NCBI GenBank assembly: GCA_030748485.1
Contig: JASMLW010000506.1
Coordinates: 1 to 64,000, forward strand
DNA length: 64,000 nucleotides
Origin: Pirellulaceae bacterium
GTDB taxonomy: Bacteria; Planctomycetota; Planctomycetia; Pirellulales; Pirellulaceae
Direction of reading: 5' to 3'
In this document: positions 3,880-62,275 of the stretch, piece by piece
Layout of the letters: every line of letters begins with the position of its first letter
Position numbering within the stretch: the first letter of the stretch is position 1
The notes under the pieces: model-generated
The model's database searches: none
The model's input: the letters and a program-made list of their open reading frames with translations, nothing else
What the model was told of the DNA's origin: nothing
Position numbers and translations under genes: made by a program

Positions 3880-3952
3880 AAGGATGACTAAGGAATGACT
3901 AAGGCCTAGTGACTAATGACTAAGGAATGACGAGGGCCGAATGACTAAGGGG
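3880..3952. repeat. TGACTAAGG-type short repeats
   Basis: Six to seven imperfect copies of AATGACTAAGG or TAGTGACTAATGAC lie in tandem. The same words recur at 5528-5560, 5628-5650 and 62233-62272. They border the larger repeat block on both sides. Confidence 0.8.
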
Positions 3953-3974
3953 GGAAGGACGTAAACGTTTCAGA

Positions 3975-4528: not shown

Positions 4529-4797
4529 TGGTCGTGCGCGGCGGCCAAGGCGCCAAGATCATCGACAAGCGTGTCGAGGACCCATTGATAGTAGGTAATC
4601 GTGGGTAATCGTAGGTCGTAGGACGGGTCTCCAGGCCCGTCGAATGGAACGGCAAGCCAGCAATCGACGATCCCGAGCCGAGCGAGATTCCAGACCCGGC
4701 GATTGAGTTTCCTTTGGAGATAGTTCCGGAAACTCCCGGCGTCTGTCGAATCGGGTTGGACCCCGACGGAAGCGAAGACGAGGCGGCGCGGCTCGCG

Positions 4798-5225
4798 AGG
4801 GTGGGACGCGATGGCGCGGGGCGACGCGAGGGTGGAACGCGATGGCGCGGGGCGGCGCGGGAATGGGACGCGATGCGCGGGGCGACGTGAGTGGGACACG
4901 ATGGCGCGGAGCCACGCGAGAATGGAGCGCGGTGGCGCGGAGCCACGTGAGAATGGGACGCGATGCGCGGGGCGACGTGAGTGGGACACGATGGCGCGGA
5001 GCCACGTGAGAATGGAACGCGATGCGCGGAGCCACGTGAGAATGGGACGCGATGCGCGGGGCGACGTGAGTGGGACACGATGGCGCGGAGCCATGTGAGA
5101 ATGGAACGCGGTGGCGCGGGGCGACGCGAGAATGGAGCGCGGGGGCGCGGAGCCACGTGAGAATGGGACGCGATGCGCGGGGCGACGTGAGTGGGACACG
5201 ATGGCGCGGAGCGACGCGGGAATGG
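4798..5225 (+). repeat. GC-rich minisatellite, about 14 units
   Basis: Tandem units of about 30-33 bases alternate GATGGCGCGGGGCGACG with GATGCGCGGGGCGACGTGAG and GGAGCCACGTGAGAATGG variants. Higher-order blocks of about 120 bases (for example 4865-4950 against 5040-5100 and 5160-5215) are nearly identical, which implies recent duplication of multi-unit segments. Confidence 0.8.
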
Positions 5226-5227
5226 AG

Positions 5228-5313
5228 CGTTGGTTGCAGCTGGAACGCCTGGTTCACCCGTGCTCAAGCACGGGCCTATGGCCGCCTGCGGCGGAATGGG
5301 GCGTAAACGCCCC
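5228..5313 (+). repeat. three-hairpin element, copy C
   Basis: Lead GTTGGTTGCAGCTGGAACGC, hairpin 1 at 5257-5274, then the CCGCC/GGCGG hairpin, then GGGGCGT-AA-ACGCCCC at 5298-5313. Nearly identical to copy D 200 bases away. Confidence 0.85.
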
Positions 5314-5430
5314 TGGTCGTGCGCGGCGAGGGTGGAGCGCGGTGGCGCGGGGCGACGCGAGAATGGAGCGCGGTGGCGCGGGGCGACGCGAGAATGGAAC
5401 GCGATGGCGCGGGGCAACGCGAGAATGGAG

Positions 5431-5516
5431 CGTTGGTTGCAGCCGGAACGCCTGGTTCACCCGTGCTCAAGCACGGGCCTATGGCCGCCTGCGGCGGAAT
5501 GGGGCGTAAACGCCCC
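5431..5516 (+). repeat. three-hairpin element, copy D
   Basis: Same structure: hairpin 1 at 5460-5477 and hairpin 3 at 5501-5516, followed by a short unique stretch and TGACTAA-type repeats read on the opposite strand. Confidence 0.85.
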
Positions 5517-5566
5517 TCTCGTCCTGCCTCCTTAGTCATTAGTCCTTCGTCATTAGTCATTCCAGG

Positions 5567-5605
5567 GGCCGCCTGCGGCGGAAGGGGGCGTAAACGCCCC
5601 TTTTT
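5567..5605 (+). repeat. partial three-hairpin element, copy E, with T-run
   Basis: Only hairpins 2 (5569-5581) and 3 (5585-5600) are present. Hairpin 3 is directly followed by TTTTT (5601-5605), so this copy also looks like a Rho-independent terminator on the plus strand, although no plus-strand gene precedes it. Confidence 0.7.
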
Positions 5606-5641
5606 GACACGTTGACGTCCTTCCCCCTTAGTCATTCGGCC

Positions 5642-6493
5642 TTAGTCATTTTTCACGTCGCCCAAAACGCATCGCAAACCGAGCGCGTCGTCTTTGATTT
5701 CCTTGTAGATGCCGCCGCCCTTGATTTCGATCGTCACCTCGCGCTTCAATCCGCGAAACGAGCCCTGCCGGCAGGACGAGGTCAGCAGTTCGGCCTTGTC
5801 TTTCCAACTGCCGCCTCGAATAACGCGTCGTTTGGCGTCGCCGCCTTTGACCCAGGCGGATCCATCCGTCGGCCCGCCTTCCAACGACTGGTGGGCGTGG
5901 TCGGCGCACCACTCCCACAGATAGCCGTGGATGTCGTAGAGTCCCCACGCGTTCGGCTTCTTGGCTCCCACCGGCGGATCGTTTCCGGACGCATTTCCCG
6001 TGAACCATCCGTAGTCCGTCAGCTGGTCCACTTCGTCGCCAAACGAGTACTTGGTCGTTGTGCCGGCGCGAGCGAAATACTCCCACTCCGCTTCGGTCGG
6101 CAGCCGGATTTCCTGTTTGTCGCCAATCAACTTGGCGGCTCGCATGAGCCTGGTGGCCTTTTGGCAAAACTGTTCGGCTTCGTCAAACGTGAGCATTTCG
6201 ACCGAGTTGCGTTTTCCCGTCCAACGACTTGGGTTCGATCCCAAGACAGCCGTCCACAAGTTTTGCGGTACTTCGTACTTGGCGACGTGAAAATCGTAGT
6301 CGAACGTCACCGTGCGAACCGGCTGTTCAGCCGGCGAACCCGCCGCCGATCCCATCTTGAACGACTTGGGGAATTTGCCTTTCCCCGGAGTGACGTGGAC
6401 GAACTCGGAGTGAAACAGCTTGAGCAATTCGGTTTGTTCGACGTTTGGTTCGGCGGAGATCATCACGGCGGTCAGCAGAATTGCGGCGGTCAT
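5642..6493 (-). CDS. formylglycine-generating-enzyme-type (SUMF1) domain protein
   Basis: The 283-residue product starts with a short hydrophobic stretch, a possible signal peptide (MTAAILLTAVMISAEP). It continues with an FGE-sulfatase fold: MGS near residue 47, then motifs of the type VTFDYDFHVAKYEV, LPTEAEWEYFARAG, GLYDIHGYLWEWC and RVIRGGSWKD, and a late cysteine in SSCRQGSF. Family members activate sulfatases or serve as ligand-binding domains; planctomycetes encode many of both. Whether this one is catalytic is not clear. The last three codons and the stop (KND then TAA) are read from a TGACTAA-type repeat, so the 3' end has been reshaped by the repeat. Confidence 0.85.
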   Translation of the reverse strand: MTAAILLTAVMISAEPNVEQTELLKLFHSEFVHVTPGKGKFPKSFKMGSAAGSPAEQPVRTVTFDYDFHVAKYEVPQNLWTAVLGSNPSRWTGKRNSVEMLTFDEAEQFCQKATRLMRAAKLIGDKQEIRLPTEAEWEYFARAGTTTKYSFGDEVDQLTDYGWFTGNASGNDPPVGAKKPNAWGLYDIHGYLWEWCADHAHQSLEGGPTDGSAWVKGGDAKRRVIRGGSWKDKAELLTSSCRQGSFRGLKREVTIEIKGGGIYKEIKDDALGLRCVLGDVKND

Positions 6494-18894: not shown

Positions 18895-19125
18895 ACTTGT
18901 GCCTTCGCGTGTCCGTGTGCGATTTTTTTCTCACACAAAGACACGAAGCCACGAAGAAGGAGGGCTGCGGAGCAGTCGTTTTCGCGGCGCGCGTCTTAGT
19001 GCCTTCGTGCCTCCGTGTGCGATTCCTTTCTTTCTCACACCAGGACACGAATCCACGAAGAAGGAGGCTGCGGAGGAGTCGTTTTGGCGGCTCGCGTCTT
19101 TGTGCCTCCGTGCCTCCGTGTGCGA
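18895..19125. repeat. dispersed CACGAAG/CTTCGTG hairpin repeat, two tandem copies
   Basis: Two copies of a unit of about 105-110 bases, one from about 18925 and one from about 19033. Each begins near CTCACAC..GACACGAA.CCACGAAG, continues AAGGAGG.CTGCGGAG.AGTCGTTTT and ends GTGCCTCCGTGTGCGA. The first and last parts of each unit are reverse complements, so each can fold into a long hairpin. The copies are about 85-90 percent alike. Bases 18799-19263 otherwise hold no gene. Confidence 0.75.
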
Positions 19126-20283: not shown

Positions 20284-21143
20284 ATGAAGATCGTTCGAGC
20301 TGAGTCGATGGGAATGTGTTTCGGCGTTCGAGACGCTTTGGCGGAAGCTACGTCTCAGCCGAATCCAAGTCGGGTGGCGATACACGGTGAGCTGGTGCAC
20401 AACTCGCACGTGTTGCAGCAACTCGACTCGCTCGGGTTGGCTCAATGCCCGGAGGAGTCACGAGCGATTGCGGCTGATCGACCGCTGGTAATGATCACCG
20501 CTCACGGCGTCAGCAATGCTGAACGCGAGCGCCTGGAGCGCGCCGGCAAGACGTTGATCGACACGACTTGCCCTCTGGTGCAGCGGGTGCATGATGCGGC
20601 GCAGCGGCTGTCCGCCGAAGGGCGATTAGTGCTGGTTGTCGGAAAGCGCAACCACGTCGAAGTACGCGGTATCATCGAGGATCTGGAGCACTACGCGGTG
20701 GTCGAGAGCGCCGACGACGTTCGCGACTTTAACGAATCGCAACTGGGCGTGATCTGTCAATCGACGACCCCGCCGGATCTCGCCTGCGATATCTGGTCGC
20801 ACATCCAATTGCACAATCCGCTTGCCGACATCGCTTTCATCGACACAATCTGTGATCCGACGTGGCAGCGGCAACACGCCCTGGAAGCGCTGCTGCCGGA
20901 AGTGGAGGCGGTCGTTGTCGTGGGTGGAAAAAATTCGAACAACACGCGACGATTAGTGCAGTTCTGCCACCGACACGGCAGACCGGCGCTGCACGTAGAG
21001 GGACCGGACGACGTCGATCCGGATTGGCTGTGCGGAGTCGCAACCGTCGGATTGACAGCCGTACGAGCACGCTCGACGAGACGATTGAGGCTGTGTACGA
21101 AGAACTTCAAACACTCGGGGGCGCAAAGCGTCATTCGGCATGA
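20284..21143 (+). CDS. ispH: 4-hydroxy-3-methylbut-2-enyl diphosphate reductase IspH, with apparent one-base deletion
   Basis: IspH makes IPP and DMAPP, the last MEP-pathway step. The three iron-sulfur cysteines are present (Cys12 in GMCFGVRDA, Cys96 in TTCPLV, Cys190 in CDPTWQRQ). So are IHGELVHNSHV, TAHGVS, and Glu126 in RNHVEVRG, the proton-relay position. After VGLTA (codon ending 21060) the frame runs on as VRARSTRRL, unlike the family, and stops at 21156. One base later the expected end TSTLDETIEAVYEEL continues and stops with TGA at 21141-21143, overlapping the next ATG. One missing G at 21060-21062 explains this. It is a sequencing error, a recoding site or a real mutation. Confidence 0.88.
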
Positions 21144-22375
21144 AGCTGACTTTTGACATCGTGATCGTCGGCGCGGGACTTGCCGGATTGCAATGCGCCC
21201 GCCAATTGGCGCGGCTCGGGTTCGCCGTGGCGCTGGTCGATCGCAAACAACGACTCGACCAGTCAGTGCACACGACGGGGATCTTTGTCCGGCGAACGTT
21301 GGAGGATTTTTCATTCCCGGCCGATTGCCTCGGGCAACCCATTAACACGGTGAGACTCTATTCGCCGTCGGGCCGCATGTTGGAGGTCAACAGCCCGCAC
21401 GACGAGTTCCGCATTGGCCGGATGGCCCGGCTCTACCAAAGGTGGCTCGACGAGGCCGTCGAGGCGGGCGCCGTGTGGTTTCCCGGTAGGAGTTATCACG
21501 AGATGGCGGCGCCATCCGCGCCCGGCGCGCGATTCGACGTCGCGCTCGAGCGAGTGGGTGGAGCCGAACGCGAAGTGCTCTCGACGCGGTTTGTGGTGGG
21601 AGCCGACGGAGTGCAATCGAGCATCGCCGCGGACTTAAAGTTGAGTTTGAATCGCCGTTGGATTGTCGGATTTGAGGAGGTCTACCGACGCGCCGAGCCG
21701 GTCGGTCGCTCTGGGTCGGCTAGATTGCATTGCGTGCTGGACCCGCGGCTGGCGCCAGGATACATCGCCTGGGCGGTCGACGACGGCGAGGAGATTCACC
21801 TGGGAGTCGGTGGACATCCGCGGCGCTTCGCGCCGCGCGATGCGCTCAGCGAGTTTCTGCCCCGGGCGGTTGAGTTGGTATCGCTGGAGGGCGCGGAATT
21901 GGTCGAGTCGCGTGGTGGACGGATCCCGGTCGGCGGCGTCTTGCCGCGCATCGCGCGCTCGCAAGGGCTGCTGGTGGGCGATGCGGCCGGCGCGGTCTCC
22001 CCGCTCACCGCCGGCGGGCTGGACCCCTGCTTGCGCTTGTCCTCCTTCGCGGCCGAAGTCATTGAGCGCACTTTGTCTGGCGACGGACGGGCGATCGGTG
22101 AATACAACGGGTCCGAGTTTCGGCGGAGATTCCGGCTGCGACGTTGGATGAGGTCGTGTTTGTCGCGATTGCGCTGGCGGTGGACGGCCGAAGCGGCGGT
22201 CGCTTGTCTGGCGCGGTGTCCCAATCAATCGCTCGCCCGCCGGATCTTCTTTGGACGTGGGTCGTTCCCACTAGAACATCGCGAAGCGATCGGCGCGGTC
22301 AAAGGAGAGGTTGAAGACGCCCAAGCCGCTCACGCCCCGCCGGCTCATCAAACGGCTGCAGAAGTGCTGGACTAG
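21140..22375 (+). CDS. geranylgeranyl-reductase-family FAD-dependent oxidoreductase
   Basis: A 411-residue flavoprotein: the ADP-binding GAGLAGLQCARQLA motif at residues 11-24, Arg/Asp after strand 2 (LVDRKQR), the GADGVQSS loop near residue 152 and the second FAD motif GDAAGAVSPLTAGG near residue 272. The family includes geranylgeranyl reductases that saturate isoprenoid chains and related halogenases and hydroxylases. The start ATG overlaps the corrected ispH stop (ATGA), consistent with isoprenoid metabolism. The substrate is not determined. The last 30 residues are low in conservation. Confidence 0.85.
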   Translation: MKLTFDIVIVGAGLAGLQCARQLARLGFAVALVDRKQRLDQSVHTTGIFVRRTLEDFSFPADCLGQPINTVRLYSPSGRMLEVNSPHDEFRIGRMARLYQRWLDEAVEAGAVWFPGRSYHEMAAPSAPGARFDVALERVGGAEREVLSTRFVVGADGVQSSIAADLKLSLNRRWIVGFEEVYRRAEPVGRSGSARLHCVLDPRLAPGYIAWAVDDGEEIHLGVGGHPRRFAPRDALSEFLPRAVELVSLEGAELVESRGGRIPVGGVLPRIARSQGLLVGDAAGAVSPLTAGGLDPCLRLSSFAAEVIERTLSGDGRAIGEYNGSEFRRRFRLRRWMRSCLSRLRWRWTAEAAVACLARCPNQSLARRIFFGRGSFPLEHREAIGAVKGEVEDAQAAHAPPAHQTAAEVLD

Positions 22376-22407
22376 ACCCGATTAGGACCCCGTCAGGCGG
22401 CAGCCAC

Positions 22408-22988
22408 TAGTCATCAGAGCGCATTTCAAAACCGATGTCTTGCCGTACGATGGCCTTCCAAGGCCGTCGAGAACGGACGTTCCACTTGCTTCATCGCGGC
22501 GATTTCTTGGGCCGCTGAGGGCGAATCGGGAGCCATCTCGAGGAATTAACCCGCATTCGACGGCCTCGGAAGGCCATCGTACAAGGTTTTGAACAGCCTC
22601 TAGCTAGCTAGTCGTCAGAGCGCATTTCAAAACCGATGTCTTGCCGTACGATGGCCTTCCAAGGCCGTCGAGAACGGACGTTCCACTTGCGTCATCGCGG
22701 CGATTTCTTCGGCCGCTGAGGGCGAATCGGGAGCCATCTCGAGGGATTAACCCGCATTCGACGGCCTCGGAAGGCCATCGTACAAGGTTTTGAACAGCCT
22801 CTAGCTAGCTAGTCATTAGAGCGCATTTCAAAACCGATGTCTGCCTTCCAAGGCGGACGTTCCACTTGCTTCATCGCGGCGATTTCTTGGGCCGCTGAGG
22901 GCGAATCGGGAGCCATCTCGAGGGATTAACCCGCATTCGACGGCCTCGGAAGGCCATCGTACAAGGTTTTGAACAGCCTCTAGTCATT
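22408..22988. repeat. three tandem 201-base units with long inverted-repeat arms
   Basis: Units start at 22408, 22609 and 22810. Each holds a left arm GTACGATGGCCTTCCAAGG plus CCGTCGA (22445-22470 in unit 1) and a right arm (22557-22582) that is its reverse complement at 25 of 26 positions, with about 86 bases between. Outer flanks TTCAAAACC and GGTTTTGAA extend the pairing. Units 1 and 2 differ at only a few bases. Unit 3 has lost about 25 bases of its left arm. The whole 22376-22988 interval has no gene. Confidence 0.88.
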
Positions 22989-23504
22989 CTAGCGCTCACT
23001 CCCCCCCATCACCCACGGCGCGCCGTCGCCCGTCTCTTGCCGCAGGCGCACGCTTAGCTGTCCGATGTGGTGTTCGAGGTGCCGCAGGCTGTAGATGTGC
23101 AGTTCGGCGCGATGGAAATCGCGGCCGGGGAAGCCGGATGGGCCCAACAGGGTAGCTTCCGTTTCGCCGCCGATCGACGCGGCCGCCTTAGCGCGGCAGT
23201 GACCGACGTAGAGCAGCGTCGTGGGGCGATCGTAGAGATACTGTTGAGCTCGGTCTTGCAGCTCTTCGTAGTCGCGAAAGTAGTCGGCGTGTTCGCGGTG
23301 AAACGGATCGTCGGCGAGCGGATCAGCGTCGCGGCCAAGATAGTAATCAGTGAAAAAGATCGCGTGGAAGGCGACCTGGCAATACTTCAGGTTAGCGACG
23401 GGCGCGTTCCAAATCGAATCGGGGCAGCGCTCGACACAGGAGTGCATCATGCGCAGCGCCGCCTCAAACTGATTCAACGTCGATGACTTGTACTCGCCCA
23501 ACAT
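22989..23504 (-). CDS. DinB family protein
   Basis: A 171-residue four-helix-bundle protein with the spaced DinB/YfiT metal ligand pattern: a His in VAFHAIFFTDYYLG (near residue 47) and the late HLEHHIGQLSVRL (His near 143 and 146). Members bind a divalent metal; some are mycothiol- or bacillithiol-dependent transferases. The start MLGEYKSS is typical. It is the last gene of the long minus-strand run and lies directly beside the 201-base repeats. Confidence 0.8.
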   Translation of the reverse strand: MLGEYKSSTLNQFEAALRMMHSCVERCPDSIWNAPVANLKYCQVAFHAIFFTDYYLGRDADPLADDPFHREHADYFRDYEELQDRAQQYLYDRPTTLLYVGHCRAKAAASIGGETEATLLGPSGFPGRDFHRAELHIYSLRHLEHHIGQLSVRLRQETGDGAPWVMGGSER

Positions 23505-62154: not shown

Positions 62155-62232
62155 GTAGCTCGCTGTGAACCGTTCTTGACTCAGAGACGCTCGTAAGATG
62201 ATACCCTGGCCGACTCGGAGAAGGGAATCAGA

Positions 62233-62275
62233 ATGACTATGACTAAGGAAGGTCTAGTGACTAATGACTAAGGAA
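62233..62275. repeat. TGACTAAGG-type short repeats
   Basis: The same AATGACTAAGG and TAGTGACTAATGAC words as at 3880-3952 and 5528-5650, here in the gap between the propeller gene and the toxin gene. Confidence 0.75.

Follow-up and report, generated by a model that had tools for sequence, protein, structure and literature searches.

A tandem array of REP dimers enclosed by IS5-type miniature transposon ends in a Pirellulaceae genome

The window analysed here, a 64,000-nucleotide stretch of a Pirellulaceae draft assembly (GCA_030748485.1, contig JASMLW010000506.1, positions 1 to 64,000), contains at 22407–22987 a tandem array whose repeating unit is a composite: its ends are those of an IS5-type MITE, its arms form a dimer of REP sequences, and the core between these arms comes from a second population of dimers in the same genome. 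We consider it probable that a non-autonomous IS5-type miniature transposon, carrying a RAYT-type REP dimer, had its core swapped by way of the arms and was then duplicated in tandem. MITEs, REP dimers and tandem REP clusters are each known kinds of repeat. An earlier note on this DNA had called the array MITE-like, a description that holds but that missed the composite nature of the unit (IS5-type MITE ends, REP dimer, and a core common to another dimer population).

Results

Architecture of the array

Two 201-bp units and a third, shorter one lie head-to-tail on the forward strand (unit 1, 22407–22607; unit 2, 22608–22808; unit 3, 22809 to approximately 22987). Units 1 and 2 are 98% identical, with 4 substitutions over 201 positions, and unit 3 lacks 22 nt around its left arm. 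Each unit holds an element proper (22417–22600, 22618–22801 and 22819–22980) that begins with a left terminal repeat, GAGCGCATTTCAAAACC, on the forward strand (22417–22433, 22618–22634 and 22819–22835) and finishes with a right terminal repeat on the reverse strand (22585–22600, 22786–22801 and 22965–22980), the latter being one base short relative to other copies. The left border is CA, a changed TA, in units 1 and 2; the right border of unit 1 is TA, and unit 3 has TA at both borders. Internal to the terminal repeats are a left REP hairpin (forward strand; 22445–22470 and 22646–22671, mostly gone in unit 3) and a right REP hairpin (reverse strand; 22557–22582, 22758–22783 and 22937–22962), which flank a long core (forward strand; 22471–22556, 22672–22757 and about 22854–22936). 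The arms are 26 nt long, 96% complementary and 86 nt apart, and the outer flanks of the unit pair as well. The earlier note had read the general layout correctly: it had described three tandem units with paired arms and outer flanks, two of them near-identical at 201 bases and the third with part of an arm lost, and near-perfect 26-base arms around about 86 bases; its start and end were right to within one base.

The folding energy of a single unit is −99 kcal/mol for RNA (z −7.3) and −51 kcal/mol for DNA (z −6.2), with none of 200 shuffles doing as well, and the arm pattern (≤3 mismatches) occurs five times in the window versus zero times in 100 shuffles. The array lies between two convergent genes: one, for a FAD-dependent geranylgeranyl-reductase-like protein (21140–22375, forward strand), has its 3′ end facing the array, and the stop codon of the other, for a DinB-like protein whose score is under the curated cut-off (22989–23504, reverse strand), adjoins it. 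So stable a fold at such a site could be taken for a functional RNA, or a bidirectional terminator array, that is under selection and has spread only incidentally. We regard this as highly improbable: the sequence exists in many copies with transposon-like borders, the array has no family match in Rfam at E up to 1, and a search of 241 genomes of the family, this one included, found the long core in none of the other 240. The array may have a secondary terminator role, and it could affect the transcription of its two neighbours. Elsewhere in the window, at 4794–5517 and 18897–19125, are two more tandem arrays; one is a hierarchical repeat of 30/90/210 bp, the other a repeat of 103 bp.

Genome-wide copies, transposon ends and target sites

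A BLAST search with the unit against the 649 contigs of its genome gave 176 matches, which divide into two sets, S and L. The S copies are elements of 122 bp: TAGAGCGCATTTCAAAACC forms the ends, and between them two arms in opposite orientation enclose a spacer of 20 nt. In the L copies the oppositely oriented arms enclose a core of some 86 nt; these copies are without transposon ends, are often tandem, and are interspersed with a second palindrome family. The arm itself gives 251 genome matches (≤2 mismatches) versus 0 for the control, and the 19-nt terminal inverted repeat TAGAGCGCATTTCAAAACC gives 124 (≤3 mismatches) versus 0 for its reversed control; the search for other copies that the earlier note had proposed was thus productive. 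Its candidate for the transposon end, GTACGATGG, proved to be the tag plus the foot of the internal REP hairpin; the true end is TAGAGCGCATTTCAAAACC, bordered by TA.

From the fetched stretches, which cover a part of the 124 ends, we collected 66 different complete copies, of which 30 measure 122 bp and 18 measure 134 bp, with the remainder at 66–152 bp; the window's own units are absent from this set because their right end is one base short. Both arms are present in 62 of the 66, and TA occupies both borders in 65, with YTA on the left in 63 and TAR on the right in 63. The common 134-bp form, longer by 12, has one GCCTTCCAAGGC palindrome added to an arm.

We also removed the element and one TA and matched the joined flanks to the fetched sequence of the same genome. 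Spanning matches were obtained at E 1e-6 for 15 copies, a count without a denominator. The cleanest of these empty sites are gap-free with a single TA (78 nt at 96%, 84 nt at 90% and 59 nt at 93%); several other alignments have gaps at or near the junction, and the alignment is loose because the sites are TAGTCATT-rich repeats. The earlier note had suggested a comparison with relatives for empty sites: related ones exist inside the genome itself, and in relatives the neighbour gene is just 39–50% identical. The element is therefore short, non-coding and multi-copy, has terminal inverted repeats, and duplicates its target, as judged from the TA borders and the single-TA empty sites; these are the properties of a MITE.

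Several other features of these repeats deserve mention. Runs of the octamer TAGTCATT are intergenic, occurring in the window at 3894–3972, 5520–5643 and 62232–62263 and in the flanks of many element copies; there are 11 octamers in the window versus 0.7 in shuffles, and the runs double as insertion targets of the element. The arms lengthen in 12-nt steps by extra GCCTTCCAAGGC copies, giving elements of 134 and 146 bp (L079, L085, L086, L223, L235), which suggests growth by slippage on the hairpin. The REP hairpin is itself interrupted at several loci, immediately behind GGCCTTCCRAGGCC, by another insertion sequence, whose ends are GCTGCTGTGAACATGTT (L090–L101, L038, L093, L099); 11 matches have one of its ends and 6 have the other, and its interior is absent from the contigs. 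ISPpu9 of Pseudomonas putida is likewise said to insert into REPs.

The ends belong to IS5-family elements

An exact scan for the end across a collection of species genomes returned 29 loci, compared with about 2 expected by chance at even composition: 13 are in one Pirellulales MAG, 7 in one Rubrobacter MAG, 2 in one Acidobacteria MAG, and 7 are singles. The Pirellulales MAG has elements of 81 bp and longer with the same ends, and no REP in the stretches inspected. At 4 of the 29 loci, all in other genomes (Acidisoma, Salinisphaera, a Daviesbacteria MAG and a Lloydbacteria MAG), the exact end has an IS5-type transposase immediately inside it; at L178 such a transposase is just outside the end, and L161 has a transposase fragment inside a variant end. 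Both transposases that we tested, those of Acidisoma and Salinisphaera, match PF13340 and DDE_Tnp_1; with the NF033580 model for the IS5 family, the Acidisoma protein scores over the cut-off and the N-terminal part of the Salinisphaera protein slightly under it. The element thus has its ends in common with autonomous IS5-family elements of other genomes, as a MITE should. The Rubrobacter MAG has its own miniature elements of 118–137 bp, which share the IS5-type ends and have borders resembling TTA (L170, L176, L183, L184, L188).

The IS427-group elements listed for Paracoccus have 2-bp duplications and typical lengths of 832–865 bp (PMC3281130); we apply the IS427 label on the strength of the 2-bp duplication and element size, rather than of a group-level model. 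No match to PF13340 was found in the genome's own assembly, and the earlier proposal that any mobility would be in trans is supported. We place little weight on absent transposases, because draft contigs often end at these repeats. An IS630/Tc1-type MITE, which was first considered for its TA, was rejected: the assembly has no PF13358, and the ends are those of IS5-family elements.

The arms are REP sequences associated with one RAYT clade

Each arm is a GTAC-tagged hairpin, that is, a 4-nt tag and an 8-bp stem with a conserved foot. When the arm was sought in 59 other genomes, 8 were positive, mostly with pairs, and the transposon ends were never present there. In these relatives the tag is GTAC, GTAG or GGAG, variation in the stem is compensated, and the arms form head-to-head dimers. 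A tag with a compensated stem-loop and head-to-head dimers are the attributes of GTAG-type REPs and REPINs; the latter are reportedly dimers dispersed by RAYT.

Compensation in the stem was assessed twice. Three stem positions have double changes (17 cells versus 4.9 in shuffles), a count drawn from 19 hand-picked arms of which 10 to 13 had been found by a rule already requiring pairing. In a retest with the pairing rule removed, the three variable positions pair in 36 of 37 occurrences and in 12 of 13 distinct middles.

The first 30 Y1 transposase loci examined in the 8 arm-carrying relatives have no arm at the gene, although one (L147) has an arm about 1.1 kb off. Among the remaining 17 stretches, L245 (genome G024) encodes a RAYT with head-to-head arm dimers on both sides, and at L255 (genome G013) a variant flanks the gene on either side. 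The L245 protein has matches in 116 of 241 family genomes (own genome included); of 30 loci fetched from this search, 11 have a tagged hairpin close to the gene, 7 of them on both sides. The hairpin is present at 10 of 15 loci with at least 60% identity, versus 1 of 15 below that value (p 0.0017). Since the same tag and foot, on covarying stems, stand beside one RAYT clade in relatives, the arms are REP sequences arranged in head-to-head dimers.

By the rule used for the relatives' loci, none of 9 Y1 loci in the window's own genome has an arm. The cognate RAYT was not found in this assembly; the nearest RAYT is 28% identical and is flanked by another palindrome family. At L036 (1345–2376), a RAYT of this genome has a different palindrome pair, GTCCTCCCTGCCGGGGAGGAC and TTCGCGACAAAGTCGCGA, on both sides, and relatives of these palindromes are interspersed in long-core arrays.

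The window unit is a hybrid of two repeat populations

In the fetched sequence we distinguished 126 arm contexts, leaving out arms close to the edge of a contig or stretch and repeated instances of one context: 49 have the S spacer, 54 the L core and 23 another interior. Transposon ends accompany all 49 short-spacer arms and are absent from 49 of the 54 long-core arms. The five hybrid arms, which combine the L core with ends, comprise four in the window and one in L025; L059 is a further case, with L cores between ends or end remnants. The 86-nt core of the window units is related to that of REP dimers without transposon ends, and the window's right arms have G as a loop base, as do many L-set arms. 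Given the linkage of spacer to ends, and the exceptions to it in the window, the unit is a recombinant of two repeat populations that share REP arms.

It might be argued that the unit is a plain REP dimer (REPIN or BIME) moved by RAYT, and that its outer paired flanks are extended hairpin arms; the arms are, after all, RAYT-type REPs in head-to-head pairs, and the relatives' dimers have no outer flanks. Yet the outer ends are on every short-spacer arm context of this genome, copies end at TA borders that lie outside the terminal repeats, another Pirellulales MAG has the ends without REPs, as do IS5-family elements, and the assembly yielded no cognate RAYT. We consider the plain-dimer explanation unlikely.

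Another possibility is that the array arose from three separate insertions into neighbouring CTAG sites, with no tandem duplication; the targets are YTAR, and CTAG is found at the unit edges. However, units 1 and 2 differ so little (4 of 201 positions), and they have in common the uncommon hybrid interior, a left border of CA, a right end that is one base short, and the linker; moreover, the hybrid form is encountered elsewhere only at L025 and L059, where the interiors are different. Separate insertions are very improbable, and the recent tandem duplication proposed in the earlier note is borne out.

Discussion

We propose the following history for the array. A DDE transposase, probably of the IS5 type, would have moved the unit in trans, duplicating a TA target. 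The common 122-bp form, in which a head-to-head REP dimer encloses a 20-nt spacer, may be the starting point; recombination through the common REP arms, by a putative crossover, would have replaced this spacer with the 86-nt core from end-less dimers. One hybrid would have sat between the two convergent genes, where slippage or unequal exchange at the CTAG(TCATT) repeats flanking the element could then have generated three tandem copies; a 22-nt loss around an arm would have shortened one of them.

REP dimers are considered to need their RAYT for spread. We judge it an evenly balanced proposition that this REP population has switched vehicle: residing in IS5-type miniature transposons, it would be spreadable by a DDE transposase without RAYT, the arms would serve as cargo exchange points between transposon-borne and free dimers, and the window array would be one such swap caught in the act of duplicating. 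The present dimer, lying within the ends of a DDE transposon in an assembly that yielded neither enzyme, is a specific instance of REPs that could persist beyond their RAYT or spread without it, and of interiors exchanged between two repeat populations via common hairpin arms. Furthermore, the link between a REP sequence and one RAYT clade, seen across a bacterial family, makes recognition testable with matched pairs.

Within the literature searched, three points are new: that the enclosing ends are those of IS5, that the REP is linked to one RAYT clade, and that interiors were exchanged. Searches for the REP and end sequence words listed matches that look unrelated by title, and the combination of REP, IS5 family and miniature elements returned only a Neisseria review.

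The array can be set against three known systems. With the IS5-family (IS427 group) insertion sequences and MITEs, it shares the 19-nt end of the Acidisoma and Salinisphaera elements, and its TA borders resemble the 2-bp duplications listed for the IS427 group (PMC3281130); it departs from them in that the family transposase was not found in the assembly and that the interior is a REP dimer, rather than a deleted transposase gene. Like GTAG-type REP dimers, REPINs and BIMEs, it has a tag and an 8-bp stem with a conserved foot, head-to-head dimers, tandem clusters and, in relatives, a RAYT flanked by the same hairpins. Unlike them, this genome has GTAC as its tag and short-spacer dimers inside transposon ends, and its assembly gave no cognate RAYT. 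R. baltica is listed among the species with several GTAG families (PMC3733652). The closest parallel in form is that described for Anabaena variabilis, in which GTAG-15 REP dimers are regularly inside a longer palindrome with TA at its start and end (PMC3733652). In the portion of that account dealing with GTAG-15, the palindrome is not tied to a transposon family, whereas in the present genome the enclosing ends are those of IS5 and the interior has been exchanged with a second dimer population.
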